This document shows, piece by piece, positions 1-37,716 of a DNA stretch of 64,000 nt; within the stretch, counting starts at the first letter, position 1, and every line of letters starts with the position of its first letter. Below the pieces are notes generated by a model. That model was not told the DNA's origin and searched no databases. It saw nothing but the letters and a program-made list of their open reading frames with translations. The position numbers were made by a program, and so were the translations under genes. This stretch comes from Odiellus spinosus (lineage: Eukaryota > Arthropoda > Arachnida > Opiliones > Phalangiidae): assembly GCA_963920705.1 (NCBI GenBank), contig CAWUCO010000289.1:902001-966000 (forward strand), in the 5' to 3' direction.

Positions 1-313
1 GCAACTTTTTGGATTCAAAAATCCTCTCGTTATTGGTGAACTTCAAGAATTAAACCAAGGAACCGAGCATCGGTGGTTCAGTGGTAGAATGCTCGCCTGC
101 CACGCTGGCGGCCCGGGTTCGGTTCCCGGCCGATGCAACTATTTGGATTCAAAAATCGTCTCATTATTGGTGAACTTCAAGAATTAAACCAAGGAACCGA
201 GCATGGGTGGTTCAGTGGTAGAATGCTCGCCTGCCACGCGGGCCGATGCAACTTTTTGGATTCAAAAATCCTCTCGTTATTGGTGAACTTCAAGAATTAA
301 ACCAAGGAACCGA

Positions 314-363
314 GCATCGGTGGTTCATTGGTAGAATGCTCGCCTGCCACGCGGGCCGATGCA
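314..363 (+). pseudogene. T-armless tRNA-Gly unit (T- class, example)
   Basis: 50-nt derivative: acceptor GCATCGG, D arm, anticodon arm CTCGC-CTGCCAC-GCGGG, then directly CCGATGCA. Compared with a full gene, exactly 21 nt are missing: the 4-nt variable loop plus the 17-nt T arm. The acceptor stem and anticodon are intact, but there is no B box. The breakpoints share GGC, so a simple microhomology deletion explains the origin. This class is very abundant (most 113-bp units up to 13 kb, scattered later). It is normally followed by a good T5 tract. Confidence 0.85.
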
Positions 364-2184
364 ACTTTTTGGATTCAAAAATCCTCTCGTTATTGGTGAA
401 CTTCAAGAATTAAACCAAGGAACCGAGCATCGGTGGTTCAGTGGTTGAATGCTCGCCTGCCACGCGGGCCGATGCAACTTTTTGGATTCAAAAATCCTCT
501 CGTTATTGGTGAACTTCAAGAATTAAACCAAGGAACCGAGCATCGGTGGTTCAGTGGTAGAATGCTCGCCTGCCACGCGGGCCGATGCAACTTTTTGGAT
601 TCAAAAATCCTCTCGTTATTGGTGAACTTCAAGAATTAAACCAAGGAACCGAGCATCGGTGGTTCAGTGGTTGAATGCTCGCCTGCCACGCGGGCCGATG
701 CAACTTTTTGGATTCAAAAATCCTCTCGTTATTGGTGAACTTCAAGAATTAAACCAAGGAACCGAGCATCGGTGGTTCAGTGGTAGAATGCTCGCCTGCC
801 ACGCGGGCCGATGCAACTTTTTGGATTCAAAAATCCTCTCGTTATTGGTGAACTTCAAGAATTAAACCAAGGAACCGAGCATCGGTGGTTCATTGGTAGA
901 ATGCTCGCCTGCCACGCGGGCGGCCCGGGTTCGATTCCTGGCCGATGCAACTTTTTGGATTCAAAAATCCTCTCGTTATTGGTGAACTTCAAGAATTAAA
1001 CCAAGGAACCGAGCATCGGTGGTTCAGTGGTTGAATGCTCGCCTGCCACGCGGGCCGATGCAACTTTTTGGATTCAAAAATCCTCTCGTTATTGGTGAAC
1101 TTCAAGAATTAAACCAAGGAACCGAGCATCGGTGGTTCAGTGGTAGAATTTTCGCCTGCCACGCGGGTGGCTCGGGTTCGGTTCCCGGCCGATGCAACTT
1201 TTTGGATTCAAAAATCCTCTCATTATTGGTGAACTTCAAGAATTAAACCAAGGAACCGAGCATCGGTAGTTCAGTGGTAGAATGCTCGCCTGCCACGCGG
1301 GCCGATGCAACTTTTTGGATTCAAAAATCCTCTCGTTATTGGTGAACTTCAAGAATTAAACCAAGGAACCGAGCATCGGTGGTTCAGTGGTAGAATGCTC
1401 GCCTGCCACGCGGGCCGATGCAACTTTTTGGATTCAAAAATCCTCCCATTATTGGTGAACTTCAAGAATTAAACCAAGGAACCGAGCATCGGTAGTTCAG
1501 TGGTAGAATGCTCGCCTGCCACGCGGGCCGATGCAACTTTTTGGATTCAAAAATCCTCTCGTTATTGGTGAACTTCAAGAATTAAACCAAGGAACCGAGC
1601 ATCGGTGGTTCAGTGGTTGAATGCTCGCCTGCCACGCGGGCCGATGCAACTTTTTGGATTCAAAAATCCTCTCGTTATTGGTGAACTTCAAGAATTAAAC
1701 CAAGGAACCGAGCATCGGTGGTTCAGTGGTAGAATGCTCACCTGCCACGCGGGCCGATGCAACTTTTTGGATTCAAAAATCCTCTCGTTATTGGTGAACT
1801 TCAAGAATTAAACCAAGGAACCGAGCATCGGTAGTTCAGTGGTAGAATGCTCGCCTGCCACGCGGGCGGCCCGGGTTCGATTCCCGGCCGATGCAACTAT
1901 TTGGATTCAAAAATCCTCTCATTATTGGTGAACTTCAAGAATTAAACCAAGGAACCGAGCATCGGTGGTTCAGTGGTAGAATGCTCGCCTGCCACGCGGG
2001 CCGATGGAACTTTTTGGATTCAAAAATCCTCTCGTTATTGGTGAACTTCAAGAATTAAACCAAGGAACCGAGCATCGGTGGTTCAGTGGTAGAATGCTCG
2101 CCTGCCACGCGGGCCGATGCAACTTTTTGGATTCAAAAATCCTCTCGTTATTGGTGAACTTCAAGAATTAAACCAAGGAACCGA

Positions 2185-2255
2185 GCATCGGTAGTTCAGT
2201 GGTAGAATGCTCGCATGCTACGCGGGCGGCCCGGGTTCGATTCCCGGCCGATGCA
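2185..2255 (+). tRNA. tRNA-Gly body with anticodon GCT
   Basis: Full-length Gly-type body whose anticodon loop is ATGCTAC instead of CTGCCAC. The anticodon (2217-2219) therefore reads GCT, complementary to Ser AGC/AGT codons. The D arm starts TAGTTCAGTGG. Stems and B box are intact. It may be a pseudogene; the anticodon change alone does not show that it is charged or used. Confidence 0.65.
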
Positions 2256-2544
2256 ACTATTTGGATTCAAAAATCCTCTCATTATTGGTGAACTTCAAGA
2301 ATTAAACCAAGGAACAGAGCATCGGTGGTTCAGTGGTAGAATGCTCGCCTGCCACGCGGGCCGATGCAACTTTTTGGATTCAAAAATCCTCTCGTTATTG
2401 GTGAACTTCAAGAATTAAACCAAGGAACCGAGCATCGGTGGTTCAGTGGTAGAATGCTCGCCTGCCACGCGGGCCGATGCAACTTTTTGGATTCAAAAAT
2501 CCTCTCGTTATTGGTGAACTTCAAGAATTAAACCAAGGAACCGA

Positions 2545-7203: not shown

Positions 7204-8712
7204 ACTATTTGGATTCAAAAATCCTCTCATTATTGGTGAACTTCAAGAATTAAACCAAGGAACCGAGCATCGGTGGTTCAGTGGTAGAATGCTCGCCAGC
7301 CACGCGGGCCGATGCAAATTTTTGGATTCAAAAATCCTCTCATTATTGGTGAACTTCAAGAATTAAACCAAGGAACCGAGCATCGGTGGTTCTGTGGTAG
7401 AATGCTCGCCTGCCACGCGGGCCGATGCAACTTTTTGGATTCAAAAATCCTCTCGTTATTGGTGAACTTCAAGAATTAAACCAAGGAACCGAGCATCGGT
7501 GGTCATTGGTAGAATGCTCGCCTGCCACGCGGGCCGATGCAACTTTTTGGATTCAAAAATCCTCTCGTTATTGGTGAACTTCAAGAATTAAACCAAGCAA
7601 CCGTGCATCGGTGGTTCAGTGGTAGAATGCTCGCCTGCCACGCTGGCGGCCCGGGTTCGATTCCCGGCCGATGCAACTATTTGGATTCAAAAATCCTTCC
7701 ATTATTGGTTAACTTCAAGAATTAAACCAAGGAACCGAGCATCGGTGGTTCAGTGGTAGAATGCTCGCCTGCCACGCGGGCCGATGCAACTTTTTGGATT
7801 CAAAAATCCTCTCGTTATTGGTGAACTTCAACAATTAAACAAAGGAACCGAGGATCGGTAGTTCAGTGGTAGAATGCTCGCCTGCCACGCGGGCGGCCCG
7901 GGTTCGATTCCCGGCCGATGCAACTATTTGGATTCAAAAATCCTCTCATTATTGGTGAACTTCAAAAATTAAACCAAGGAACCGAGCATCGGTGATTCAG
8001 TGGTAGAATGCTCGCCTGCCACGCGGGCCGATGCAAACTTTTGGATTCAAAAATCCTCTCATTATTGGTGAACTTCAAGAATTAAACCAAGGAACCGAGC
8101 ATCGGTGGTTCTGTGGTAGAATGCTCGCCTGCCACGCGGGCCGATGCAACTTTTTGGATTCAAAAATCCTCTCGTTATTGGTGAACTTCAAGAATTAAAC
8201 CAAGGAACCGTGCATCGGTGGTTCAGTGGTAGAATGCTCGCCTGCCACGCTGGCGGTCCGGGTTCGATTCCCGGCCGATGCAACTATTTGGATTCAAAAA
8301 TCCTCTCGTTATTGGTGAACTTCAAGAATTAAGCCAAGGAACCGAGCATCGGTGGTTCATTGGTAGAATGCTCGCCTGCCACGCGGGCCGATGCAACTTT
8401 TTGGATTCAAAAATCCTCTCGTTATTGGTGAACTTCAAGAATTAAACCAAGGAACCGTGCATCGGTGGTTCAGTGGTAGAATGCTCGCCTGCCACGCTGG
8501 CGGCCCGGGTTCGATTCCCGGCTGATGCAACTATTTGGATTCAAAAATCCTCTCATTATTGGTGAACTTCAAGAATTAAACCAAGGAACCGAGCATCGGT
8601 GTTTCAGTGGTAGAATGCTCGCCTGCCACGCGGGCCGATGCAACTTTTTGGATTCAAAAATCCTCTCGTTATTGGTGAACTTCAAGAATTAAACCAAGGA
8701 ACCGAGCATCGG

Positions 8713-8723
8713 TGGTTCAGTGG
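8713..8723 (+). promoter_or_regulatory. Internal Pol III A box (example copy)
   Basis: TGGTTCAGTGG in the D arm matches the A-box consensus TRGYNNANNNG. All unit classes keep it. Some have TAGTTCAGTGG (still a match); others carry CATTGG or CTGTGG, which alter the 3' part. Confidence 0.8.
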
Positions 8724-8754
8724 TAGAATGCTCGCCTGCCACGCGGGCGGCCCG

Positions 8755-8765
8755 GGTTCGATTCC
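8755..8765 (+). promoter_or_regulatory. Internal Pol III B box (example copy)
   Basis: GGTTCGATTCC matches the B-box consensus GGTTCRANTCC, the TFIIIC contact site. It is entirely missing from T-armless units and mutated in many full-length ones (GGTTTGATTCC or GGTGAGATTCC). Confidence 0.8.
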
Positions 8766-8778
8766 CGGCCGATGCAAC

Positions 8779-8783
8779 TTTTT
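8779..8783 (+). terminator. Pol III T5 terminator (example copy)
   Basis: Five T residues start four bases after the last acceptor-stem base, followed by the GGATT-CAAA-AATCC hairpin. This T5 is found in most spacers but is TATTT after many full-length genes. Confidence 0.7.
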
Positions 8784-8839
8784 GGATTCAAAAATCCACT
8801 CGTTATTGGTGAACTTCAAGAATTAAACCAAGGAACCGA

Positions 8840-8910
8840 GCATCGGTGGTTCAGTGGTAGAATGCTCGCATGCTACGCGGGCGGCCCGGGTTCGATTCCC
8901 GGCCGATGCA
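8840..8910 (+). tRNA. tRNA-Gly body with anticodon GCT
   Basis: Otherwise canonical 71 nt; loop ATGCTAC, anticodon GCT at 8872-8874. CTATTTGG follows. Confidence 0.7.
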
Positions 8911-9086
8911 ACTATTTGGATTCAAAAATCCTCTCATTATTGGTGAACTTCAAGAATTAAACCAAGGAACCGAGCATCGGTGGTTCAGTGGTAGAATGCT
9001 CGCCTGCCACGCGGGCCGATGCAACTTTTTGGATTCAAAAATCCTCTCGTTATTGGTGAACTTCAAGAATTAAACAAAAGAACCGA

Positions 9087-9157
9087 GCATCGGTGGTTCA
9101 GTGGTAGAATGCTCGCCTGCCACGCGGGCGGCCCGGGTTCGATTCCCGGCCGATGCA
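9087..9157 (+). tRNA. tRNA-Gly (GCC), canonical
   Basis: Exact copy with T5 downstream; 5' flank AACAAAAGAACCGA. Confidence 0.88.
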
Positions 9158-9333
9158 ACTTTTTGGATTCAAAAATCCTCTCATTATTGGTGAACTTCAA
9201 GAATTAAACCAAGGAACCGAGCATCGGTGGTACAGTGGTAGAATGCTCGCCTGCCACGCGGGCCGATGCAACTTTTTGGATTCAAAAATCCTCTCGTTAT
9301 TGGTGAACTTCAAGAATTAAACCAAGGAACCGA

Positions 9334-9404
9334 GCATCGGTGGTTCAGTGGTAGAATGCTCGCCTGCCACGCGGGCGGCCCGGGTTCGATTCCCGGCCGA
9401 TGCA
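9334..9404 (+). tRNA. tRNA-Gly (GCC), canonical
   Basis: Exact copy; CTATTTGG downstream. Confidence 0.85.
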
Positions 9405-10185
9405 ACTATTTGGATTCAAAAATCCTCTCATTATTGGTGAACTTCAAGAATTAAACCAAGGAACCGAGCATCGGTGGTTCAGTGGTAGAATGCTCGCCTG
9501 CCACGCGGGCCGATGCAAATTTTTGGATTCAAAAATCCTCTCATTATTGGTGAACTTCAAGAATTAAACCAAGGAACCGAGCATCGGTGGTTCTGTGGTA
9601 GAATGCTCGCCTGCCACGCGGGCCGATGCAACTTTTTGGATTCAAAAATCCTCTCGTTATTGGTGAACTTCAAGAATTAAACCAAGGAACCGTGCATCGG
9701 TGGTTCAGTGGTAGAATGCTCGCCTGCCACGCTGGCGGTCCGGGTTCGATTCCCGGCCGATGCAACTATTTGGATTCAAAAATCCTCTCGTTATTGGTGA
9801 ACTTCAAGAATTAAGCCAAGGAACCGAGCATCGGTGGTTCATTGGTAGAATGCTCGCCTGCCACGCGGGCCGATGCAACTTTTTGGATTCAAAAATCCTC
9901 TCGTTATTGGTGAACTTCAAGAATTAAACCAAGGAACCGTGCATCGGTGGTTCAGTGGTAGAATGCTCGCCTGCCACGCTGGCGGCCCGGGTTCGATTCC
10001 CGGCCGATGCAACTATTTGGATTCAAAAATCCTCAATATTGGTGAACTTCAAGAATTAAACCAAGGAACCGAGCATCGGTGTTTCAGTGGTAGAATGCTC
10101 GCCTGCCACGCGGGCCGATGCAACTTTTTGGATTCAAAAATCCTCTCGTTATTGGTGAACTTCAAGAATTAAACCAAGGAACCGA

Positions 10186-10256
10186 GCATCGGTGGTTCAG
10201 TGGTAGAATGCTCGCCTGCCACGCGGGCGGCCCGGGTTCGATTCCCGGCCGATGCA
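10186..10256 (+). tRNA. tRNA-Gly (GCC), canonical
   Basis: Exact copy with T5 downstream; counterpart of 8706-8776, 1480 bp later. Confidence 0.88.
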
Positions 10257-10319
10257 ACTTTTTGGATTCAAAAATCCACTCGTTATTGGTGAACTTCAAG
10301 AATTAAACCAAGGAACCGA

Positions 10320-10390
10320 GCATCGGTGGTTCAGTGGTAGAATGCTCGCATGCTACGCGGGCGGCCCGGGTTCGATTCCCGGCCGATGCA
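10320..10390 (+). tRNA. tRNA-Gly body with anticodon GCT
   Basis: Counterpart of 8840-8910 in the 1480-bp repeat; anticodon GCT at 10352-10354. Confidence 0.7.
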
Positions 10391-10566
10391 ACTATTTGGA
10401 TTCAAAAATCCTCTCATTATTGGTGAACTTCAAGAATTAAACCAAGGAACAGAGCATCGGTGGTTCAGTGGTAGAATGCTCGCCTGCCACGCGGGCCGAG
10501 GCAACTTTTTGGATTCAAAAATCCTCTCGTTATTGGTGAACTTCAAGAATTAAACCAAGGAACCGA

Positions 10567-10637
10567 GCATCGGTGGTTCAGTGGTAGAATGCTCGCCTGC
10601 CACGCGGGCGGCCCGGGTTCGATTCCCGGCCGATGCA
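10567..10637 (+). tRNA. tRNA-Gly (GCC), canonical
   Basis: Exact copy with T5 downstream. Confidence 0.88.
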
Positions 10638-11060
10638 ACTTTTTGGATTCAAAAATCCTCTCATTATTGGTGAACTTCAAGAATTAAACCAAGGAACCGA
10701 GCATCGGTGGTTCAGTGGTAGAATGCTCGCCTGCCACGCGGGCCGATGCAACTTTTTGGATTCAAAAATCCTCTCGTTATTGGTGAACTTCAAGAATTAA
10801 ACAAAAGAACCGAGCATCGGTGGTTCAGTGGTAGAATACTCGCCTGCCACGCGGGCGGCCCGGGTTCGATTCCCGGCCGATGCAACTTTTTGGATTCAAA
10901 AATCCTCTCATTATTGGTGAACTTCAAGAATTAAACCAAGGAACCGAGCATCGGTGGTACAGTGGTAGAATGCTCGCCTGCCACGCGGGCCGATGCAACT
11001 TTTTGGATTCAAAAATCCTCTCGTTATTGGTGAACTTCAAGAATTAAACCAAGGAACCGA

Positions 11061-11131
11061 GCATCGGTGGTTCAGTGGTAGAATGCTCGCCTGCCACGCG
11101 GGCGGCCCGGGTTCGATTCCCGGCCGATGCA
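11061..11131 (+). tRNA. tRNA-Gly (GCC), canonical
   Basis: Exact copy with T5 downstream. Confidence 0.88.
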
Positions 11132-11307
11132 ACTTTTTGGATTCAAAAATCCTCTCATTATTGGTGAACTTCAAGAATTAAACCAAGGAACCGAGCATCG
11201 GTGGTACAGTGGTAGAATGCTCGCCTGCCACGCGGGCCGATGCAACTTTTTGGATTCAAAAATCCTCTCGTTATTGGTGAACTTCAAGAATTAAACCAAG
11301 GAACCGA

Positions 11308-11378
11308 GCATCGGTGGTTCAGTGGTAGAATGCTCGCCTGCCACGCGGGCGGCCCGGGTTCGATTCCCGGCCGATGCA
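11308..11378 (+). tRNA. tRNA-Gly (GCC), canonical
   Basis: Exact copy; the downstream tract is only T4 (CTTTTCGG). Confidence 0.86.
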
Positions 11379-11441
11379 ACTTTTCGGATTCAAAAATCCA
11401 CTCGTTATTGGTGAACTTCAAGAATTAAACCAAGGAACCGA

Positions 11442-11512
11442 GCATCGGTGGTTCAGTGGTAGAATGCTCGCATGCTACGCGGGCGGCCCGGGTTCGATTC
11501 CCGGCCGATGCA
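11442..11512 (+). tRNA. tRNA-Gly body with anticodon GCT
   Basis: Third homologous copy, 1122 bp after the previous one; anticodon GCT at 11474-11476. Confidence 0.7.
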
Positions 11513-11688
11513 ACTATTTGGATTCAAAAATCCTCTCATTATTGGTGAACTTCAAGAATTAAACCAAGGAACAGAGCATCGGTGGTTCAGTGGTAGAATG
11601 CTCGCCTGCCACGCGGGCCGAGGCAACTTTTTGGATTCAAAAATCCTCTCGTTATTGGTGAACTTCAAGAATTAAACCAAGGAACCGA

Positions 11689-11759
11689 GCATCGGTGGTT
11701 CAGTGGTAGAATGCTCGCCTGCCACGCGGGCGGCCCGGGTTCGATTCCCGGCCGATGCA
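11689..11759 (+). tRNA. tRNA-Gly (GCC), canonical
   Basis: Exact copy with T5 downstream; the following full unit has a mutated B box (GGTTTGATTCC). Confidence 0.88.
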
Positions 11760-12090
11760 ACTTTTTGGATTCAAAAATCCTCTCATTATTGGTGAACTTC
11801 AAGAATTAAACCAAGGAACCGAGCATCGGTGGTTCAGTGGTAGAATGCTCGCCTGCCACGCGGGCGGACCGGGTTTGATTCCCGGCCGACGCAACTTTTT
11901 GGATTCAAAAATCCTCTCGTTATTGGTGAACTTCAAGAATTAAACCAAAGAACCGAGCATCGGTGGTTCAGTGGTAGAACGCTCGCCTGCCACGCGGGCG
12001 GACCGGGTTTGATTCGCGGCCGATGCAACTTTTTGGATTCAAAAATCCTCTCGTTATTGGTGAACTTCAAGAATTAAACCAAGGAACCGA

Positions 12091-12161
12091 GCATCGGTGG
12101 TTCAGTGGTAGAATGCTCGCCTGCCACGCGGGCGGCCCGGGTTCGATTCCCGGCCGATGCA
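12091..12161 (+). tRNA. tRNA-Gly (GCC), canonical
   Basis: Exact copy; CTATTTGG downstream. Confidence 0.85.
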
Positions 12162-13232
12162 ACTATTTGGATTCAAAAATCCACTCGTTATTGGTGAACT
12201 TCAAGAATTAAACCAAAGAACCGAGCATCGGTAGTTCAGTGGTAGAATGCTCGCCTGCCACGCAGGCGGCCCGGGTTCGATTCCTGGCCGATGCAACTTT
12301 TTGGATTCAAAAATCCACCCGTTATTGGTGAACTGCAAGAATTAAACCAAGGAACCGAGCATCGATGGTTCAGTGGTAGAATGCTCGCCTGCCACGCGGG
12401 CCGATGCAACTTTTTGGATTCAAAAATCCACTCGTTATTGGTGAACTTCAAGAATTAAACAAAGGAACCGAGCATCGGTGGTTCAGTGGTAGAATGCTCG
12501 CCTGCCACGCGGGCGGACCGGGTTTGATTCCCGGCCGATGCAACTTTTTGGATTCAAAAATCCTCTCGTTATTGGTGAACTTCAAGAATTAAACCAAAGA
12601 ACCGAACATCGGTGGTTCAGTGGTAGAATGCTCGCCTGCCACGCGGGCGGCCCGGGTTCGATTCCCGGCCGATGCAACATTTTGGATTCAAAAATCCACT
12701 CGTTATTGGTGAACTTCAAGAATTAAACCAAGGAACCGAGCATCGGTGGTTCAGTGGTAGTATGCTCGCATGCCACGGGGGCGGACCGGGTTTGATTCCC
12801 GGCCAACGCAACTTTTTGGATTCAAAAATCCACTCGTTATTGGTGAACTGCAAGAATTAAACCAAGGAACCGAGCATCGGTGGTTCAGTGGTAGAATGCT
12901 CGCCTGCCACGCGGGCCGATGCAACTTTTTGGATTCAAAAATCCACTCGTTATTGGTGAACTTCAAGAATTAAACCAAGGAACCGAGCATCGGTGGTTCA
13001 GTGGTAGAATGCTCGCCTGCCACGCGGGCCGATGCAACTTTTTGATTCAAAAATCCTCTCGTTATTGGTGAACTTCAAGAATTAAACTAAAGAACCGAAC
13101 ATCGGTGGTTCAGTGGTAGAATGCTCGCCTGCCACGCGGGCGGCCCGGGTTCGATTCCCGGCCGATGCAACTTTTTGGATTCAAAAATCCTCTCATTATT
13201 GGTGAACTTCAAGAATTAAACCAAGGCACCGA

Positions 13233-13303
13233 GCATCGGTGGTTCAGTGGTAGAATGCTCGCCTGCCACGCGGGCGGCCCGGGTTCGATTCCCGGCCGAT
13301 GCA
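13233..13303 (+). tRNA. tRNA-Gly (GCC), canonical
   Basis: Exact copy with T5 downstream; 5' flank CCAAGGCACCGA. Confidence 0.88.
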
Positions 13304-22556: not shown

Positions 22557-25500
22557 ACTTTTTGGATTCAAAAATCCTCTCATTATTGGTGAACTTCAAG
22601 AATTAAGCCAAGGAACCGAGCATCGTTGGTTCAGTGGTAGAATGCTCGCCTGCCACGCGGGCCGATGCAACTTTTTGGATTCAAAAATCCTCTCGTTATT
22701 GGTGAACTTGAAGAATTAAACCAAAGAACCGAGCATCGGTGGTTCAGTGGTAGAATGCTCGCCTGCCACGCGGGCGGCCCGAGTTCGATTCCCGGCCGAT
22801 GCAACTTTTTGGATTCAAAAATCCTCTCATTATTGGTGAACTTCAAGAATTAAACCAAGGAACCGAGCATCGGTGGTTCAGTGGTAGAATGCTCGCCTGC
22901 CACGCGGGCGGACCGGGTTTGATTCCCGGCCGATGCAACTTTTTGGATTCAAAAATCCTCTCATTATTGGTGAACTTCAAGAATTAAACCAAGGAACCGA
23001 GCATCGGTGGTTCAGTGGTAGAATGCTCGCCTGCCACGCGGGCCGATGCAACTTTTTGGATTCAAAAATCCTCTCGTTATTGGTGAGCTTCAAGAATTTA
23101 ACCAAGGAACCGAGCATCGGTGGTTCAGTGGTAGAATGCTCGCGGGCGGCTCGGGTTCGATTCCCGGCCGATGCAACTTTTTGGATTCAAAAATCCTCTC
23201 ATTATTGGTGAACTTCAAGAATTAAACCAGGGAACCGAGCATCGGTGGTTCAGTGGTAGAATGCTCGCCTGCCACGCGGGCCGATGCAACTTTTTGGATT
23301 CAAAAATCCTCTCGTTATTGGTGAACTTCAAGAATTAAACCACAGAACCGAGCATCGGTGGTTCAGTGGTAGAATGCTCGCCTGCCACGCGGGCGGCCCG
23401 GGTGAGATTCCCGGCCGTTGCAACTTTTTGGATTCAAAAATCCTCTCGTTATTGGTGAACTTCAAGAATTAAACCAAGGAACCGAGCATCGGTGGTACAG
23501 TGGTAGAATGCTCGCCTGCCACGCGGGCGGACCGGGTTCGATTCACGGCCGATGCAACTTTTTGGATTCAAAAATCCTCTCGTTATTGGTGAGCTTCAAG
23601 AATTTAGCCAAGGAACCGAGCATCGGTGGTGCAGTGGTAGTATGCTCGCGGGCGGCTCGGGTTCGATTCCCGGCCGATGCAACTTTTTGGATTCAAAAAT
23701 CCTCTCATTATTGGTGAACTTCAAGAATTAAACCAGGGAACCGAGCATCGGTGGTTCAGTGGTAGAATGCTCGCCTGCCACGCGGGCCGATGCAACTTTT
23801 TGGATTCAAAATCCTCTCGTTATTGGTGAACTTCAAGAATTAAACCACAGAACCGAGCATCGGTGGTTCAGTGTTAGAATGCTCGCCTGCCACGCGGGCC
23901 GATGCATCTTTTTGGATTCAAAAATCCTCTCGTTATTGGTGAACTTCAAGAATTAAACCAAAGAACCTAGCATCGGTGGTTCAGTGGTACAATGCTCGCC
24001 TGCCACGCGGGCGGACCGGGTTCGATTCCCGGCCGATGATACTTTTTGGATTCAAAAATCCTCTCGTTATTGGTGAACTTCAAGAATTAAATCAAGGAAG
24101 CGAGCATCGGTGGTTCAGTGGTAGAATGCTCGCCTGCCACGCGGGCGGACCGGGTTTGATTCCCGGCCGATGCAACTTTTTGGATTCAAAAATCCACTCG
24201 TTATTGGTGAAATTCAAGAATTAAACCAAGTAACCGAGCATCGGTGGTTCAGTGGTAGAATGCTCGCCTGCCACGCGGGCGGACCGGGTTTGATTCCCGG
24301 CCGATGGAACTTTTTGGATTCAAAAATCCCCTCATTATTGGTGAACTTCAAGAATTAAACCAAGGAACCGAGCATCGGTGGTTAGTGGTAGAATGCTCGC
24401 CTGCCACGCGGGCCGATGCAACTTTTTGGAGTCAAAAATCCTCTCGTTATTGGTGAACTTCAAGAATTAACCCAAGGAACCGAGCATCGGTGGTTCAGTG
24501 GTAGAATGCTCGCCTGCCATGCGGGCGGCCCGGGTTCGATTCCCGGCCGATGCAACTTTTTGGATTCAAAAATCCTCTCATTATTGGTGAACTTCAAGAA
24601 TTAAACCAAGGAACCGAGCATCGGTGGTTCAGTGGTAGAATGCTCGCCTGCCACGCGGGCCGATGCAACTTTTTGGATTCAAAAATCCTCTCGTTATTGG
24701 TGAGCTTCAAGAATTTAGCCAAGGAACCGAGCATCGGTGGTGCAGCGGTAGTATGCTCGCGGGCGGCTCGGGTTCGATTCCCGGCCGATGCAACTTTTTG
24801 GATTCAAAAATCCTCTCATTATTGGTGAACTTCAAGAATTAAACCAGGGAACCGAGCATCGGTGGTTCAGTGCTACAATGCTCGCCTGCCACAAGGGCCG
24901 ATGCAACTTTTTGGATTCAAAATCCTCTCGTTATTGGTGAACTTCAAGAATTAAACCACAGAACCGAGCATCGGTGGTTCAGTGGTAGAATGCTCGCCTG
25001 CCACGCGGGCGGCCCGGGTGAGATTCCCGGCCGTTGCAACTTTTTGGATTCAAAAATCCTCTCGTTATTGGTGAACGTCAAGAATTACACCAAGGAGCCG
25101 AGCATCGGTGGTTCAGTGGTAAAATGCTCGCCTGCCACGCGGGCAGCCCGGGTTTGATTCCCGGCCGATGCAACTTTTTGGATTCAAAAATCCTCTCATT
25201 ATTGGTGAACTACAAGAATTAAACCAAGGAACCGAGCATCGGTGGTTCAGTGGTAGAATGCTCGCCTACCACGCGGGCCGATGCAACTTTTTGGATTCAA
25301 AAATCCTCTCGTTATTGGTGAGCTTCAAGAATTTAACCAAGGAACCGAGCATCGGTGGTTCAGTGGTAGAATGCTCGCGGGCGGCTCGGGTTCGATTCCC
25401 GGCCGATGGAACTTTTTGGATTCAAAAATCCTCTCGTTATTGGTGAACTTCAAGATTTTAACCAAGGAACCGAGCATCGGTGGTTCAGTGGTAGAATGCT

Positions 25501-27377
25501 CGCGGGCGGCTCGGGTTCGATTCCCGGCCGATGCAACTTTTTGGATTCAAAAATCCTCTCATTATTGGTGAACTTCAAGAATTAAACCAGGGAACCGAGC
25601 ATCGGTGGTTCAGTGGTAGAATGCTCGCCTGCCACGAGGGCCGATGCAACTTTTTGGATTCAAAAATCCTCTCGTTATTGGTGAACTTCAAGAATTAAAC
25701 CACAGAACCGAGCATCGGTGGTTCAGTGGTAGAATGCTCGCCTGCCACGCGGGCGGCCCGGGTGAGATTCCCGGCCGTTGAACTTTTTGGATTCAAAAAT
25801 CCTCTCGTTATTGGTGAACTTCAAGAATTAAACCAAGGAACCGAGCATCGGTGGTACAGTGGTAGAATGCTCGCCTGCCACGCGGGCGGACCGGGTTCGA
25901 TTCACGGCCGATGCAACTTTTTGGATTCAAAAATCCTCTCGTTATTGGTGAGCTTCAAGAATTTAGCCAAGGAACCGAGCATCGGTGGTGCAGCGGTAGT
26001 ATGCTCGCGGGCGGCTCGGGTTCGATTCCCGGCCGATGCAACTTTTTGGATTCAAAAATCCTCTCATTATTGGTGAACTTCAAGAATTAAACAGGGAACC
26101 GAGCATCGGTGGTTCAGTGGTAGAATGCTCGCCTTCCACGCGGGCCGATGCAACTTTTTGGATTCAAAATCCTCTCGTTATTGGTGAACTTCAAGAATTA
26201 AACCACAGAACCGAGCGTCGGTGGTTCAGTGGTAGAATGCTCGCCTGCCACGCGGGCGGCCCGGGTGAGATTCCCGGCCGTTGCAACTTTTTGGATTCAA
26301 AAATCCTCTCGTTATTGGTGAACTTCAAGAATTACACCAAGGAGCCGAGCATCGGTGGTTCAGTGGTAAAATGCTCGCCTGCCACGCGGGCAGCCCGGGT
26401 TTGATTCCCGGTCGATGCAACTTTTTGGATTCAAAAATCCTCTCGTTATTGGTGAACTTCAAGAATTAAACCAAGGAACCGAGCATCGGTGGTTCAGTGG
26501 TAGAATGCTCGCCTGCCACGCGGGCGGCTCGGGTTCGATTCCCGGCCGATGCAACTATTTGGATTCAAAAATCCACTCGTTATTGGTGAACTTCAAGAAT
26601 TAAACCAAGGAACCGAGCATCGGTGGTTCAGTGTTAGAATGCTCGCCTGCCACGCGGGCCGATGCATCTTTTTGGATTCAAAAATCCTCTCGTTATTGGT
26701 GAACTTCAAGAATTAAACCAAAGAACCTAGCATCGGTGGTTCAGTGGTACAATGCTCGCCTGCCACGCGGGCGGACCGGGTTCGATTCCCGGCCGATGAT
26801 ACTTTTTGGATTCAAAAATCCTCTCGTTATTGGTGAACTTCAAGAATTAAATCAAGGAAGCGAGCATCGGTGGTTCAGTGGTAGAATGCTCGCCTGCCAC
26901 GCGGGCGGACCGGGTTTGATTCCCGGCCGATGCAACTTTTTGGATTCAAAAATCCACTCGTTATTGGTGAAATTCAAGAATTAAACCAAGTAACCGAGCA
27001 TCGGTGGTTCAGTGGTAGAATGCTCGCCTGCCACGCGGGCGGACCGGGTTTGATTCCCGGCCGATGGAACTTTTTGGATTCAAAAATCCCCTCATTATTG
27101 GTGAACTTCAAGAATTAAACCAAGGAACCGAGCATCGGTGGTTAGTGGTAGAATGCTCGCCTGCCACGCGGGCCGATGCAACTTTTTGGAGTCAAAAATC
27201 CTCTCGTTATTGGTGAACTTCAAGAATTAACCCAAGGAACCGAGCATCGGTGGTTCAGTGGTAGAATGCTCGCCTGCCATGCGGGCGGCCCGGGTTCGAT
27301 TCCCGGCCGATGCAACTATTTGGATTCAAAAATCCACTCGTTATTGGTGAACTTCAAGAATTAAACCAAGGAACCGA

Positions 27378-27448
27378 GCATCGGTGGTTCAGTGGTAGAA
27401 TGCTCGCCTGCAACGCGGGCGGACCGGGTTTGATTCCCGGCCGATGCA
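27378..27448 (+). pseudogene. tRNA-Gly-like, anticodon GCA, damaged B box
   Basis: Copy of 18704-18774, 8674 bp downstream. Confidence 0.6.
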
Positions 27449-29883
27449 ACTTTTTGGATTCAAAAATCCTCTCATTATTGGTGAACTTCAAGAATTAAGC
27501 CAAGGAACCGAGCATCGTTGGTTCAGTGGTAGAATGCTCGCCTGCCACGCGGGCCGATGCAACTTTTTGGATTCAAAAATCCTCTCGTTATTGGTGAACT
27601 TGAAGAATTAAACCAAAGAACCGAGCATCGGTGGTTCAGTGGTAGAATGCTCGCCTGCCACGCGGGCGGCCCGAGTTCGATTCCCGGCCGATGCAACTTT
27701 TTGGATTCAAAAATCCTCTCATTATTGGTGAACTTCAAGAATTAAACCAAGGAACCGAGCATCGGTGGTTCAGTGGTAGAATGCTCGCCTGCACGCGGGC
27801 GGACCGGGTTTGATTCCCGGCCGATGCAACTTTTTGGATTCAAAAATCCTCTCATTATTGGTGAACTTCAAGAATTAAACCAAGGAACCGAGCATCGGTG
27901 GTTCAGTGGTAGAATGCTCGCCTGCCACGCGGGCCGATGCAACTTTTTGGATTCAAAAATCCTCTCGTTATTGGTGAGCTTCAAGAATTTAACCAAGGAA
28001 CCGAGCATCGGTGGTTCAGTGGTAGAATGCTCGCGGGCGGCTCGGGTTCGATTCCCGGCCGATGCAACTTTTTGGATTCAAAAATCCTCTCATTATTGGT
28101 GAACTTCAAGAATTAAACCAGGGAACCGAGCATCGGTGGTTCAGTGGTAGAATGCTCGCCTGCCACGCGGGCCGATGCAACTTTTTGGATTCAAAAATCC
28201 TCTCGTTATTGGTGAACTTCAAGAATTAAACCACAGAACCGAGCATCGGTGGTTCAGTGGTAGAATGCTCGCCTGCCACGCGGGCGGCCCGGGTGAGATT
28301 CCCGGCCGTTGCAACTTTTTGGATTCAAAAATCCTCTCGTTATTGGTGAACTTCAAGAATTAAACCAAGGAACCGAGCATCGGTGGTACAGTGGTAGAAT
28401 GCTCGCCTGCCACGCGGGCGGACCGGGTTCGATTCACGGCCGATGCAACTTTTTGGATTCAAAAATCCTCTCGTTATTGGTGAGCTTCAAGAATTTAGCC
28501 AAGGAACCGAGCATCGGTGGTGCAGTGGTAGTATGCTCGCGGGCGGCTCGGGTTCGATTCCCGGCCGATGCAACTTTTTGGATTCAAAAATCCTCTCATT
28601 ATTGGTGAACTTCAAGAATTAAACCAGGGAACCGAGCATCGGTGGTTCAGTGGTAGAATGCTCGCCTGCCACGCGGGCCGATGCAACTTTTTGGATTCAA
28701 AATCCTCTCGTTATTGGTGAACTTCAAGAATTAAACCACAGAACCGAGCATCGGTGGTTCAGTGGTAGAATGCTCGCCTGCCACGCGGGCGGCCCGGGTG
28801 AGATTCCCGGCCGTTGCAACTTTTTGGATTCAAAAATCCTCTCGTTATTGGTGAACTTCAAGAATTAAACCAAAGAACCTAGCATCGGTGGTTCAGTGGT
28901 ACAATGCTCGCCTGCCACGCGGGCGGACCGGGTTCGATTCCCGGCCGATGATACTTTTTGGATTCAAAAATCCTCTCGTTATTGGTGAGCTTCAAGAATT
29001 TAACCAAGGAACCGAGCATCGGTGGTTCAGTGGTAGAATGCTCGCGGGCGGCTCGGGTTCGATTCCCGGCCGATGGAACTTTTTGGATTCAAAAATCCTC
29101 TCGTTATTGGTGAACTTCAAGATTTTAACCAAGGAACCGAGCATCGGTGGTTCAGTGGTAGAATGCTCGCGGGCGGCTCGGGTTCGATTCCCGGCCGATG
29201 CAACTTTTTGGATTCAAAAATCCTCTCATTATTGGTGAACTTCAAGAATTAAACCAGGGAACCGAGCATCGGTGGTTCAGTGGTAGAATGCTCGCCTGCC
29301 ACGCGGGCCGATGCAACTTTTTGGATTCAAAAATCCTCTCGTTATTGGTGAGCTTCAAGAATTTAGCCAAGGAACCGAGCATCGGTGGTGCAGTGGTAGT
29401 ATGCTCGCGGGCGGCTCGGGTTCGATTCCCGGCCGATGCAACTTTTTGGATTCAAAAATCCTCTCATTATTGGTGAACTTCAAGAATTAAACCAGGGAAC
29501 CGAGCATCGGTGGTTCAGTGGTAGAATGCTCGCCTGCCACGCGGGCCGATGCAACTTTTTGGATTCAAAATCCTCTCGTTATTGGTGAACTTCAAGAATT
29601 AAACCACAGAACCGAGCATCGGTGGTTCAGTGGTAGAATGCTCGCCTGCCACGCGGGCGGCCCGGGTGAGATTCCCGGCCGTTGCAACTTTTTGGATTCA
29701 AAAATCCTCTCGTTATTGGTGAACTTCAAGAATTACACTAAGGAACCGAGTATCGGTGGTTCAGTGGTAGAATGCTCGCCTGCCACGCGGGCAGCCCGGG
29801 TTTGATTCCCGGTCGATGCAACTTTTTGGATTCAAAAATCCTCTCGTTATTGGTGAACTTCAAGAATTAAACCAAGGAACCGA

Positions 29884-29954
29884 GCATCGGTGGTTCAGTG
29901 GTAGAATGCTCGCCTGCCACGCGGGCGGCCCGGGTTCGATTCCCGGCCGATGCA
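29884..29954 (+). tRNA. tRNA-Gly (GCC), canonical
   Basis: Exact copy; 8674-bp counterpart of 21210-21280. Confidence 0.85.
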
Positions 29955-30264
29955 ACTATTTGGATTCAAAAATCCACTCGTTATTGGTGAATTTCAAGAA
30001 TTAAACCAAGGAACCGAGCATCGGTGGTTCAGTGTTAGAATGCTCGCCTGCCACGCGGGCCGATGCATCTTTTTGGATTCAAAAATCCTCTCGTTATTGG
30101 TGAACTTCAAGAATTAAACCAAAGAACCTAGCATCGGTGGTTCAGTGGTACAATGCTCGCCTGCCACGCGGGCGGACCGGGTTCGATTCCCGGCCGATGA
30201 TACTTTTTGGATTCAAAAATCCTCTCGTTATTGGTGAACTTCAAGAATTAAATCAAGGAAGCGA

Positions 30265-30335
30265 GCATCGGTGGTTCAGTGGTAGAATGCTCGCCTGCCA
30301 CGCGGGCGGCCCGGGTTCGATTCCCGGCCGATGCA
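30265..30335 (+). tRNA. tRNA-Gly (GCC), canonical
   Basis: Exact copy; 8674-bp counterpart of 21591-21661. Confidence 0.85.
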
Positions 30336-31159
30336 ACTATTTGGATTCAAAAATCCACTCGTTATTGGTGAATTTCAAGAATTAAACCAAGGAACCGAGC
30401 ATCGGTGGTTCAGTGTTAGAATGCTCGCCTGCCACGCGGGCCGATGCATCTTTTTGGATTCAAAAATCCTCTCGTTATTGGTGAACTTCAAGAATTAAAC
30501 CAAAGAACCTAGCATCGGTGGTTCAGTGGTACAATGCTCGCCTGCCACGCGGGCGGACCGGGTTCGATTCCCGGCCGATGATACTTTTTGGATTCAAAAA
30601 TCCTCTCGTTATTGGTGAACTTCAAGAATTAAATCAAGGAAGCGAGCATCGGTGGTTCAGTGGTAGAATGCTCGCCTGCCACGCGGGCGGACCGGGTTTG
30701 ATTCCCGGCCGATGCAACTTTTTGGATTCAAAAATCCACTCGTTATTGGTGAAATTCAAGAATTAAACCAAGTAACCGAGCATCGGTGGTTCAGTGGTAG
30801 AATGCTCGCCTGCCACGCGGGCGGACCGGGTTTGATTCCCGGCCGATGGAACTTTTTGGATTCAAAAATCCCCTCATTATTGGTGAACTTCAAGAATTAA
30901 ACCAAGGAACCGAGCATCGGTGGTTAGTGGTAGAATGCTCGCCTGCCACGCGGGCCGATGCAACTTTTTGGAGTCAAAAATCCTCTCGTTATTGGTGAAC
31001 TTCAAGAATTAACCCAAGGAACCGAGCATCGGTGGTTCAGTGGTAGAATGCTCGCCTGCCATGCGGGCGGCCCGGGTTCGATTCCCGGCCGATGCAACTA
31101 TTTGGATTCAAAAATCCACTCGTTATTGGTGAACTTCAAGAATTAAACCAAGGAACCGA

Positions 31160-31230
31160 GCATCGGTGGTTCAGTGGTAGAATGCTCGCCTGCAACGCGG
31201 GCGGACCGGGTTTGATTCCCGGCCGATGCA
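31160..31230 (+). pseudogene. tRNA-Gly-like, anticodon GCA, damaged B box
   Basis: Copy of 22486-22556, 8674 bp downstream. Confidence 0.6.
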
Positions 31231-32798
31231 ACTTTTTGGATTCAAAAATCCTCTCATTATTGGTGAACTTCAAGAATTAAGCCAAGGAACCGAGCATCGT
31301 TGGTTCAGTGGTAGAATGCTCGCCTGCCACGCGGGCCGATGCAACTTTTTGGATTCAAAAATCCTCTCGTTATTGGTGAACTTGAAGAATTAAACCAAAG
31401 AACCGAGCATCGGTGGTTCAGTGGTAGAATGCTCGCCTGCCACGCGGGCGGCCCGAGTTCGATTCCCGGCCGATGCAACTTTTTGGATTCAAAAATCCTC
31501 TCATTATTGGTGAACTTCAAGAATTAAACCAAGGAACCGAGCATCGGTGGTTCAGTGGTAGAATGCTCGCCTGCCACGCGGGCGGACCGGGTTTGATTCC
31601 CGGCCGATGCAACTTTTTGGATTCAAAAATCCTCTCATTATTGGTGAACTTCAAGAATTAAACCAAGGAACCGAGCATCGGTGGTTCAGTGGTAGAATGC
31701 TCGCCTGCCACGCGGGCCGATGCAACTTTTTGGATTCAAAAATCCTCTCGTTATTGGTGAGCTTCAAGAATTTAACCAAGGAACCGAGCATCGGTGGTTC
31801 AGTGGTAGAATGCTCGCGGGCGGCTCGGGTTCGATTCCCGGCCGATGCAACTTTTTGGATTCAAAAATCCTCTCATTATTGGTGAACTTCAAGAATTAAA
31901 CCAGGGAACCGAGCATCGGTGGTTCAGTGGTAGAATGCTCGCCTGCCACGCGGGCCGATGCAACTTTTTGGATTCAAAAATCCTCTCGTTATTGGTGAAC
32001 TTCAAGAATTAAACCACAGAACCGAGCATCGGTGGTTCAGTGGTAGAATGCTCGCCTGCCACGCGGGCGGCCCGGGTGAGATTCCCGGCCGTTGCAACTT
32101 TTTGGATTCAAAAATCCTCTCGTTATTGGTGAACTTCAAGAATTAAACCAAGGAACCGAGCATCGGTGGTACAGTGGTAGAATGCTCGCCTGCCACGCGG
32201 GCGGACCGGGTTCGATTCACGGCCGATGCAACTTTTTGGATTCAAAAATCCTCTCGTTATTGGTGAGCTTCAAGAATTTAGCCAAGGAACCGAGCATCGG
32301 TGGTGCAGTGGTAGTATGCTCGCGGGCGGCTCGGGTTCGATTCCCGGCCGATGCAACTTTTTGGATTCAAAAATCCTCTCATTATTGGTGAACTTCAAGA
32401 ATTAAACCAGGGAACCGAGCATCGGTGGTTCAGTGGTAGAATGCTCGCCTGCCACGCGGGCCGATGCAACTTTTTGGATTCAAAATCCTCTCGTTATTGG
32501 TGAACTTCAAGAATTAAACCACAGAACCGAGCATCGGTGGTTCAGTGGTAGAATGCTCGCCTGCCACGCGGGCGGCCCGGGTGAGATTCCCGGCCGTTGC
32601 AACTTTTTGGATTCAAAAATCCTCTCGTTATTGGTGAACTTCAAGAATTACACTAAGGAACCGAGCATCGGTGGTTCAGTGGTAGAATGCTCGCCTGCCA
32701 CGCGGGCAGCCCGGGTTTGATTCCCGGTCGATGCAACTTTTTGGATTCAAAAATCCTCTCGTTATTGGTGAACTTCAAGAATTAAACCAAGGAACCGA

Positions 32799-32869
32799 GC
32801 ATCGGTGGTTCAGTGGTAGAATGCTCGCCTGCCACGCGGGCGGCCCGGGTTCGATTCCCGGCCGATGCA
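32799..32869 (+). tRNA. tRNA-Gly (GCC), canonical
   Basis: Exact copy just beyond the end of the 8.65-kb duplication; CTATTTGG downstream. Confidence 0.85.
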
Positions 32870-34469
32870 ACTATTTGGATTCAAAAATCCACTCGTTATT
32901 GGTGAATTTCAAGAATTAAACCAAGGAACCGAGCATCGGTGGTTCAGTGTTAGAATGCTCGCCTGCCACGCGGGCCGATGCATCTTTTTGGATTCAAAAA
33001 TCCTCTCGTTATTGGTGAACTTCAAGAATTAAACCAAAGAACCTAGCATCGGTGGTTCAGTGGTACAATGCTCGCCTGCCACGCGGGCGGACCGGGTTCG
33101 ATTCCCGGCCGATGATACTTTTTGGATTCAAAAATCCTCTCGTTATTGGTGAACTTCAAGAATTAAATCAAGGAAGCGAGCATCGGTGGTTCAGTGGTAG
33201 AATGCTCGCCTGCCACGCGGGCGGACCGGGTTTGATTCCCGGCCGATGCAACTTTTTGGATTCAAAAATCCACTCGTTATTGGTGAAATTCAAGAATTAA
33301 ACCAAGTAACCGAGCATCGGTGGTTCAGTGGTAGAATGCTCGCCTGCCACGCGGGCGGACCGGGTTTGATTCCCGGCCGATGCAACTTTTTGGATTCAAA
33401 AATCCTCTCGTTATTGGTGAACTTCAAGAATTAAACCAAGGAAGCGAGCATCGGTGGTTCAGTGGTAGAATGCTCGCCTGCCACGCTGGCGGCCCGGGTG
33501 CGATTCCCGGCCGTTGCAACTCTTTGGATTCAAAAATCCTCTCGTTATTGGTGAGCTTCAAGATTTTAACCAAGGAACCGAGCATCGGAGGTTCAGTGGT
33601 AGAATGCTCGCGGGCGGCTCGGGTTCGATTCCCGGCCGATGGAACTTCTTGGATTCAAAAATCCTCTCATTATTGGTGAACTTCAAGATTTTAACCAAGG
33701 AACCGAGCATCGGTGGTTCAGTGGTAGAATGCTCGCCTGCCACGCGGTCAGGGTTCGATTCCCGGCCACGCAACTTTTTGGATTCAAAAATCCTCTCGTT
33801 ATTGGTGAACTTCAAGATTTTAACCAAATAACCGAGCATCGGTGGTTCAGTGGTAGAATGCTCGCCTGCCACGCGGTCAGGGTTCGATTCCCGGCCACGC
33901 AACTTTTTGGATTCAAAAATCCTCTCGTTATTGATGAACTTCAAGAATTAATCGAACGAACCGAGCATCGGTGGTTCAGTGGTAGTATGCTCGCGGGCGG
34001 CTCGGGTTCGATTCCCGGCCTATGGAACTTTTTGGATTCAAAAATCCTCTCATTATTGGTGAACTTCAAGAATTAAACCAGGGAACCGAGCATCGGTGGT
34101 TCAGTGGTAGAATGCTCGCCTGCCACGCGGGCCGATGCAACTTTTTGGACTCAAAAATCCTCTCGTTATTGGTGCACTTCAAGAATTAAACCAAAGAACC
34201 GAGCATCGGTAGTTCAGTGGTAGAATGCTCGCCTGCCACGCGGGCGGACCGGGGGCGATTCCCGGCCGTTGCAACTTTTTGGATTCAAAAATCCTCTCGT
34301 TATTGGTGAACTTCAAGAATTAAAACAAGGAACCGAGCATCGGTGGTCAGTGGTAGAATGCTCGCCTGCCACGCGGGCGGCCCGGGTTCGATTCCCGGCC
34401 GATGCAACTATTTGGATTCAAAAATCCACTCGTTATTGGAGAACTACAAGAATTAAACCAAGGAACCGA

Positions 34470-34540
34470 GCATCGGTGGTTCAGTGGTAGAATGCTCGCC
34501 TGCCACGCGGGCGGCCCGGGTTCGATTCCCGGCCGATGCA
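34470..34540 (+). tRNA. tRNA-Gly (GCC), canonical
   Basis: Exact copy, the last perfect one before array 1 ends; CTATTTGG downstream. The preceding unit (34336) has lost one T in the D arm. Confidence 0.85.
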
Positions 34541-35194
34541 ACTATTTGGATTCAAAAATCCACTCGTTATTGGTGAACTTCAAGAATTAAACCAAGGAAC
34601 CGAGCATCGGTGGTTCAGTGGTAGAATGCTCGCGTGCCACGCGGGCGGACCGGGTTCGATTCCCGGCCGATGCAACTTTTTGGATTCAAAAATCCTCTCG
34701 TTATTGGTGAACTTCAAGAATTAAACCAAGGAAGCGAGCATCGGTGGTTCAGTGGTAGAATGCTCGCCTGCCACGCGGGCGGCCCGGGTGCGATTCCCGG
34801 CCGTTGCAACTCTTTGGATTCAAAAATCCTCTCGTTATTGGTGAGCTTCAAGAATTTAACCAAGGAACCGAGCATCGGAGGTTCAGTGGTAGAATGCTCG
34901 CGGGCGGCTCGGGTTCGATTCCCGGCCGATGGAAATTCTTGGATTCAAAAATCCTCTCGTTATTGGTGAACTTCAAGATTTTAACCAAGGAACCGAGCAT
35001 CGGTAGTTCAGTGGTAGAATGCTCGCCTGCCACGCGGTCAGGGTTCGATTCCCGGCCACGCAACTTTTTGGATTCAAAAATCCTCTCGTTATTGGTGAAC
35101 TTCAAGAATTAATCGAACGAACCGAGCATCGGTGGTTCAGCGGTAGTATGCACGCGGGCGGCTCGGGTTCGATTCCCGGCCTATGGAACTTTTT

Positions 35195-37631: not shown

Positions 37632-37716
37632 AAAGAACAACAGCAACTCCCCATAAGAGTCTGGGTCCACGTAATGTTAAAAATTTTCGTCTCTTTTATG
37701 ATAAACTAGCTGAAAG

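Follow-up and report, generated by a model that had tools for sequence, protein, structure and literature searches.

A giant tandem array of tRNA-Gly(GCC) units, probably a decayed gene array turned satellite, and its better preserved sister array

Tandem arrays of tRNA genes have been called uncommon outside Entamoeba (PMC4041453). In Entamoeba, long tandem arrays of short units with up to 5 tRNA genes each are kept alike by concerted evolution, and the authors found no clear evidence of pseudogenes (PMC2652664). The tRNA VNTR at human 1q23.3 varies strongly in copy number, with 9–43 copies of a 7.3-kb unit that contains several different tRNA genes (PMC4041453). The Arabidopsis SYY (tRNA-Ser/Tyr/Tyr) cluster, with three genes per unit, has grown by tandem duplication and is silent in most tissues; 13 of its 54 clustered Tyr genes give tRNA-like RNAs, and a core of major-type genes has flanks richer in variants and pseudogenes (PMC12308677). 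The tRNA clusters of zebrafish chromosome 4 comprise 5,227 genes of many isotypes, highly CpG-methylated and mostly inaccessible, and copy number is therefore no predictor of supply (PMC11574265). Squamates have tandem satellite-like repeats derived from part of a SINE (PMC10702118). In the non-autonomous LTR elements Helenus and Ajax the LTRs are tRNA-like, and tandem arrays are mentioned for one element of this type (PMC10886601). A literature search that covered few subscription papers gave no recognised insect example of a giant tRNA array of one isotype.

The window, i.e. the whole stretch of 64,000 nt analysed here, contains 306 tRNA-Gly(GCC) units, each with a 63-nt linker, arranged head-to-tail on the + strand only. 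The count rests on 16-nt linker anchors allowing ≤3 mismatches, which gave 306 hits on the + strand and none on the other. A previous sequence-only reading had put the array at roughly 280–290 units with about 23 more at 47.7–50.7 kb, and the anchors agree, giving 283 and 23. The main block (1..35194, + strand), also delineated by tandem repeats and tRNA calls, is already underway at the window start. The second block (47678..50687, + strand) consists mostly of full-length units with diverged genes, and its end falls inside a tRNA gene. Unit spacing inside blocks is 105–136 bp, with 134 bp occurring 135 times, 113 bp 102 times, 125 bp 30 times, 133 bp 17 times and 112 bp 13 times; five other values occur 7 times in total, and one 12,610-bp gap separates the blocks. 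Nested transposons split the array at this point (35195..47677, no strand assigned), as judged from sequence, repeats and DDE_Tnp_4 frames. The outer transposon starts ACCTCCCCGACTGAA following TTTTT and finishes GTTTCCCAACTTG, and an inner copy with the same ends is located at 44,396–47,112. The surroundings of the array are rich in transposons.

Upstream of the window, on the same contig (C280), 118 further units lie beyond a transposon (C280:883,394–897,297). The whole C280 array thus has approximately 424 units in blocks of 118, 283 and 23, and units of 113–134 bp cover about 52 kb of it. Higher-order repeats are present, the clearest being a pair 8,674 bp apart (17,599–23,903 versus 26,273–32,577, + strand) with 9 mismatches in 6,305 bp. 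In its short tandem unit, its length and its higher-order repeats the locus has the organization of a satellite; its tRNA genes set head-to-tail in a common unit, with all 306 anchors on one strand, are also what a functional gene array would show.

Like the Entamoeba arrays, this locus is a long tandem array of short tRNA units, but most units are broken (PMC2652664). It shares strong copy-number variation with the human VNTR, although its unit is 113–134 bp and holds one gene (PMC4041453). Growth by tandem duplication of tRNA genes is common to it and the SYY cluster, and the core-and-flank layout of the latter is counted as a further likeness; unlike SYY, there is one gene per unit, there are hundreds of units, about half carry one of two standard truncations, and the sister array is intact (PMC12308677). 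As on zebrafish chromosome 4, very many predicted tRNA genes are clustered, yet in smaller number and with a single isotype per array (PMC11574265). The squamate satellites are likewise tandem repeats from a short dispersed or gene-like repeat, whereas here a whole tRNA gene and its own linker are repeated, and an exact linker 21-mer is absent outside the arrays (PMC10702118). A tRNA-like sequence with A and B boxes inside a multiplied repeat recalls Helenus/Ajax, but there is no internal portion flanked by terminal repeats, nor are there dispersed linker copies (PMC10886601).

Dissection of 304 of the 306 anchored units (the other two are block-terminal, with no complete unit) yielded 154 full-length units, 116 without a T arm, 31 without an anticodon loop and 3 others. 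The T-armless class has lost exactly 21 bp, corresponding to the variable loop and T arm, and with them the B box; the 50-nt gene at 1260..1309 (+ strand, Rfam 36.0 bits) is an example. The anticodon-loop-less class is missing 9 bp, as in the 62-nt gene at 50260..50321 (+ strand, 39.5 bits), in which the B box is kept. A microhomology of 3 bp is found at each of the two deletions. By unit length, a cruder rule than the window dissection, the whole C280 array (421 units) divides into 187 full, 200 T-armless, 31 anticodon-less and 3 other units.

Genes were called intact if stem pairs, A box, B box, anticodon and discriminator were all unaltered. Within the window, 32 of the 154 full units carry intact genes, 13 of them with a terminator of T4 or longer, and 150 of 304 units are truncated; thus, most units do not encode an intact tRNA with an internal promoter. 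The near-perfect full gene at 1825..1895 (+ strand, unit 1767, 68.0 bits) is intact and is followed by ACTATTT, with no T4 terminator. Nine of the 13 intact genes with T4 or longer lie in a single stretch (8706..13303, + strand; unit starts 8648 to 13175, gene start +58 bases). The sequence-only reading described perfect genes alternating with standard truncated kinds, the units having their own Pol III elements. The alternation is real, although perfect genes are only 20 of the 154 full units; the Pol III elements hold in part, the consensus B box being retained in 75 full units, changed in 79 and deleted in all 116 T-armless ones. Scoring of the units as real tRNAs, a check proposed with that description, gave 163 ARAGORN calls in the window and Rfam tRNA matches above the gathering score numbering 138 in 1–35,300 and 21 in 35,000–64,000.

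Genome-wide comparisons were made within the 443-Mb assembly that contains the window. COX1 is located on its 16-kb contig C286, where every frame translated contained stops; the COX1 DNA and the tRNA sequences look like those of an insect. A second contig, C9, bears the same locus with approximately 407 units, and contig C2 bears a sister array with a homologous linker, comprising 221 genes of which 209 are full and 129 perfect. Trailers read ACTTTTT in C280 and CGTTTTT in C2. Six dispersed tRNA-Gly genes outside the arrays are identical and perfect. Intact full genes number 42 of 185 in C280 (counts of 185, or 152 for the window, apply at a mismatch limit of 10), 36 of 171 in C9 and 135 of 209 in C2, where the majority therefore do encode an intact tRNA with its internal promoter. 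Per-site variation of the tRNA versus the linker is 3.43 versus 3.45 % in C280, 3.45 versus 3.55 % in C9 and 0.90 versus 3.29 % in C2. Bootstrapped ratios of tRNA to downstream-linker variation are 1.05 (0.88–1.26), 1.00 (0.85–1.18) and 0.40 (0.30–0.52), respectively; linker statistics use full genes with acceptable flanks (173 of 185, 161 of 171 and 204 of 209), too-mismatched flanks being excluded. The tRNA is thus better conserved than its spacer in C2 and not in C280 or C9. With a tRNA that varies as much as the linker, as is typical of a satellite, the window array gives no indication of selective constraint. Additionally, among distinct genes 101 stem pairs are broken and 0 compensated in C280, and 94 are broken and 1 compensated in C9. 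Linker variation is similar in both Gly arrays, so the contrast between them isolates selection on the tRNA itself. Higher-order repeats make the units non-independent; collapsing identical haplotypes raises the C2 ratio to 0.63 (0.39–0.96), i.e. weaker constraint, and by distinct variants per site the C2 tRNA (0.451) is not lower than the downstream linker (0.435).

On these observations the window array is quite probably a once functional tRNA gene array in decay, by now a tRNA-derived satellite. Of the three roles suggested previously with no choice among them, satellite DNA with a tRNA gene as its source is the best supported. Supply of Gly-tRNA finds no support for the window array because tRNA and linker vary equally and few full genes of the C280 array are intact; this role fits C2, with its higher share of intact genes and a tRNA far less variable than the linker. 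Tandem multiplication of one ancestral tRNA-Gly(GCC) gene together with its terminator linker would have given related arrays at two genomic places, C280/C9 and C2. The C2 genes would have stayed near-perfect because C2, with the six dispersed genes, probably supplies the tRNA. In the window array constraint would have been lost, and two deletions at the 3-bp microhomologies would have created the T-armless unit without a B box and the anticodon-less unit. Unequal exchange, slippage or conversion may then have spread both truncated forms, and the same processes may have generated higher-order repeats as long as 8.7 kb and altered the number of units between assembled copies. From the sequences we infer this order of events, with C2 transcribed and the window array mostly silent.

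The array could instead be a working reserve in which a minority of intact Gly-tRNA genes suffices and selection sees their summed output, not each unit, so that broken units are carried along as passengers; we regard this as unlikely. Intact genes in the window, some with T4 or longer, would serve such a reserve. Moreover, the C280 array contains 24 perfect genes where even decay predicts 16.2, an excess that leans against a complete lack of constraint, and 17 intact genes with T4 or longer; some may therefore work. The C280 consensus is still the canonical gene, and the A box is unaltered in 179 of the 185 full genes. However, average constraint is absent by the C280 ratio, the B box is changed in half of the full window genes, and C2 alone holds its 129 perfect genes in addition to the six dispersed ones.

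Less probable still, and by a clear distance from likely, is the third suggested role, a TFIIIC-bound boundary or architectural block in which B boxes would be binding sites and tRNA output would be unimportant. The C280 array has 133 exact consensus B boxes in its 69.5 kb, the box is kept in each of the 31 window units of the anticodon-less class (7 sequence types), and PMC4041453 discusses boundary functions of tandem tRNA repeats. Nevertheless, the consensus box is lost from 79 of 154 full and 116 of 116 T-armless window units, and in full units the T arm varies more than the linker (5.8 versus 2.9 %, distinct haplotypes). Decay into a satellite remains the preferred interpretation.

The contig C9 bears on a further doubt, namely that repeats were collapsed, joined chimerically or falsely expanded in assembly. 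The near-identical higher-order repeats are the hardest case for assemblers, C280 ends exactly where the window ends, a distant C280 piece matches C9 at an unexpected place and orientation, and the two contigs, C280 and C9, might represent a single locus assembled twice. Yet the two array-bearing contigs have matching flanks (3 mismatches over about 10.4 kb and 8 over about 29 kb), 317 units lie in collinear identical runs, distinct unit sequences number 199 in C280 and 187 in C9, and each contig has its own inserted elements. That a second contig has the same locus, with an array of similar size in a different arrangement, speaks against a pure artefact, which we consider very improbable. The arrays differ by blocks of approximately 34 and 72 units, and the blocks of 118, 283 and 23 units in C280 correspond to 28, 356 and 23 in C9, a change of copy number between locus copies as in satellites. 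Differing arrangement between near-identical flanks suggests how fast such arrays change.

A functional class of T-armless units, as nuclear minigenes that encode either a regulatory hairpin RNA or a T-armless glycine tRNA of 50 nt, is scarcely credible. In its favour, the loss coincides exactly with variable loop and T arm, the acceptor stem can still pair, T4 or longer follows 116 of 116 window units, and the 50-nt form is unmutated in 45 of these. On the other side, the microhomology explains the loss, the B box is absent, and the predicted fold is a single long hairpin and not three arms; tRNA positions 1–42 of these units have 0.52 distinct variants per site and the linker 0.35, hence no sign of constraint.

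Three other candidates were rejected. All 552 copies of the exact linker 21-mer in the assembly lie within the C280, C9 and C2 arrays, which argues against a dispersed tRNA-derived SINE; the 63-nt linker as read has no A-rich tail. A small LTR element of the Helenus type would have an internal portion between units and a dispersed linker, and neither was found. Lepidopteran-type Gly-Ala silk as the driver, one form of the silk demand suggested by the sequence-only reading, did not hold up: GGNGCN repeated four times, the (Gly-Ala)4 signature, has 11 matches at 5 places genome-wide versus 17 in the reversed control, a test that covers (Gly-Ala)4 runs only, among the possible Gly-rich silk, cuticle and poly-Gly proteins. 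Exact linker patterns gave 0 matches in IMG/VR and GTDB contigs, from which records of this genome were possibly excluded.

A third giant array, on contig C17, consists of at least 125 tRNA-Ala genes with UGC and CGC anticodons approximately equal in number. The genome-wide Rfam search scored 63 of its 60,283 first-look candidates, so other arrays may exist. In one genome, then, the same tRNA-Gly gene with a homologous linker forms two arrays that have fared in opposite ways, and a giant tRNA-Ala array is present as well. A tentative suggestion, to which we would give somewhat less than even chances, is that much Gly and Ala tRNA gene supply has moved into rDNA-like, single-isotype tandem arrays, each of which arises and perishes in its entirety; the window array would then be a dead or dying sibling of C2. 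In that case a genome with both live and dead arrays of one gene would provide a natural test of the factors that keep such arrays working. For annotation this is a warning, since gene counts from genomes of this kind, such as the ARAGORN total of 163 in the window alone, would overstate Gly-tRNA capacity.

Units derived from tRNA-Gly(GCC) fill two plus-strand blocks of the window, at 1–35,194 (283 linker anchors, i.e. 16-nt linker matches) and 47,678–50,687 (23 anchors), which bears out the roughly 280–290 units, with about 23 more at 47.7–50.7 kb, of the sequence-only reading. All 306 anchors share one orientation; none was found on the opposite strand of the window. In the consensus unit, the gene spans 71 nt and the linker after it, which begins ACTTTTTGGATTC, spans 63 nt. 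Of 304 units dissected, 154 are full, 116 carry an exact 21-bp deletion, 31 carry a 9-bp deletion and 3 are of other kinds. The 21-bp deletion comprises the variable loop (4 bp) and the entire T arm (17 bp); thus the acceptor stem can still close and the B box is absent. The 9-bp deletion takes out the anticodon loop, and 3 bp of microhomology is present at each deletion. Scoring of the units as genuine tRNAs, which had been proposed, placed 138 above the Rfam cut-off within 1–35,300 and 21 within 35,000–64,000.

The window corresponds to bases 902,001–966,000 of contig C280 in a 443-Mb assembly. The array starts at 883,394 on C280, with transposons separating blocks of 118, 283 and 23 units. 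A second contig, C9, holds blocks of 28, 356 and 23 units at the same locus; between the flanks of the two there are 3 mismatches (with 89 gap positions) in ~10.4 kb and 8 (with 12 gap positions) in 29 kb. C280 ends at the window end (966,000), and the right flank beyond it is visible on C9 alone. Of the complete units (421 in C280, 404 in C9), 317 lie in collinear identical runs. Relative to each other, C9 has ~34 additional units close to one end and C280 has ~72 mid-array, roughly one 8.7-kb higher-order repeat. Each copy also contains an inserted element missing from the other at that place; a ~1.1-kb element with long terminal inverted repeats lies in the C9 array (1,039,769–1,038,644) and is not there in C280. 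The two copies are either allelic or the products of a very recent duplication; a distant piece of C280, matching C9 at an unexpected place and orientation, complicates the choice between the two.

A sister array of 221 genes with a homologous linker is located on contig C2 (32.793–32.831 Mb). Of its genes 209 are full, 129 are perfect (unmutated full genes) and 12 share the 9-bp anticodon deletion of the window units. The C2 and C280 arrays have identical tRNA consensus sequences; in the linker, the shorter C2 form shows 5 changes and one indel relative to that of C280 (64 columns). The C2 array has a higher-order repeat of 9,159 bp (10 mismatches in 7,068 bp). Genome-wide, an exact linker 21-mer occurs 552 times (C280 209, C9 202, C2 141) and nowhere outside these contigs. 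Exact copies of the final 66 nt of the tRNA gene number 181: 129 in C2, 27 in C280, 19 in C9 and 6 dispersed (four on C14, one each on C16 and C17). All six dispersed genes are perfect across 71 nt, with a run of at least four T (T4) within ~16 nt.

Per-site variation in tRNA and linker is 3.43 % and 3.45 % in C280, 3.45 % and 3.55 % in C9, and 0.90 % and 3.29 % in C2. Bootstrapped ratios of tRNA to downstream linker are 1.05 (0.88–1.26), 1.00 (0.85–1.18) and 0.40 (0.30–0.52), respectively; with identical haplotypes collapsed they are 0.99 (0.78–1.25), 1.00 (0.80–1.25) and 0.63 (0.39–0.96). Distinct variants in tRNA and linker number 98 and 63 in C280 and 32 and 48 in C2 (Fisher p 0.0026 if variants are treated as independent). 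Per site, C2 has 0.451 distinct variants in the tRNA, 0.435 in the downstream linker and 1.12 in the upstream linker, with a mean of 4.3 copies per tRNA variant versus 11.0 per downstream linker variant. Perfect genes number 24 in C280, 18 in C9 and 129 in C2, versus 16.2, 14.8 and 110.1 predicted under even decay. Counts of broken and compensated stem pairs among distinct genes are 101 and 0 in C280 (77 genes), 94 and 1 in C9, and 23 and 0 in C2 (24 genes). From these sequence patterns it was concluded that the window array is under no, or hardly any, selection for tRNA; the C2 array probably is under such selection.

Within the window, 20 of the 154 full units are perfect, and 32 retain all stem pairs, the A box, a consensus B box, the anticodon and the discriminator; 13 of these 32 also have T4 or longer downstream. 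T4 is absent from 45 of 154 full units versus 2 of 147 truncated units. ACTATTT, from which the T5 run has been removed, lies downstream of 12 of the 20 perfect genes, and is restricted to full units (8.7–34.5 kb). Because linked variants spread together, the near-restriction of T4 loss to full genes probably reflects history and not function.

The simplest account is that the window array was once a functional tRNA-Gly array, which would have lost constraint once its linker and the C2 linker had diverged; truncated units may then have entered and spread by unequal exchange. Its consensus is still the canonical gene, and the decay would therefore be recent relative to the split of the two arrays. 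The Arabidopsis SYY cluster (PMC12308677), the human 1q23.3 repeat (PMC4041453), Entamoeba arrays (PMC2652664) and zebrafish clusters (PMC11574265) are among the closest described cases. Compared with these, the window array is set apart by its size as a single-tRNA array, by how far two standard truncated forms predominate in it, and by an intact sister array that serves as a control.

A genome search with Rfam, in which 63 of 60,283 candidates were scored, pointed to C17:8.32 Mb. A giant tandem array of at least 125 tRNA-Ala genes, mostly at 159–160 bp spacing, occupies C17:8,320,001–8,340,000; it exceeds the left edge of the 20 kb examined and reaches within 25 bases of the right edge. ARAGORN identified 37 tRNA-Ala genes in the first 6 kb (CGC 20, TGC 17), and the two anticodons are about equally frequent across the 125 genes. 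The tRNA is far better conserved than the linker (1.8 % variation versus 6.4 % in the 40 nt that follow, from the 118 of 124 flanks retained). Giant single-isotype arrays are therefore not limited to Gly in this genome. Together, Gly and Ala arrays suggested silk as an explanation, yet (Gly-Ala)4 coding runs showed no excess genome-wide (11, versus 17 for the reversed pattern). Less compact groups of tRNA genes with high scores, spaced by kilobases, are present at C16:6.176–6.193, C4:15.331–15.350 and C5:9.530–9.541 Mb. The nuclear contig C17 also carries, at ~1.1–4.4 Mb, nine of the genome's 13 COX1 matches, which are probably mitochondrial insertions.

A transposon family with ends ACCTCCCCGA and CCCAACTTG occupies window positions 35,195–47,677, with an inner copy at 44,396–47,112, and recurs at C280 ~897,420–901,880. 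All three insertions lie directly after TTTTT; two are within tRNA linker, in opposite orientations. On these three cases, the family may favour T-runs, for example Pol III terminators. A tandem repeat (30-bp unit, 213-bp higher period) lies at 38,060–39,107, and a large inverted repeat at 39,720–43,754 (1,472-nt arms, 99 % complementary) contains two opposed DDE_Tnp_4 transposase-like frames. A further frame of 345 residues, on the minus strand at 58,567–59,604, also matches DDE_Tnp_4 (E 2e-28).
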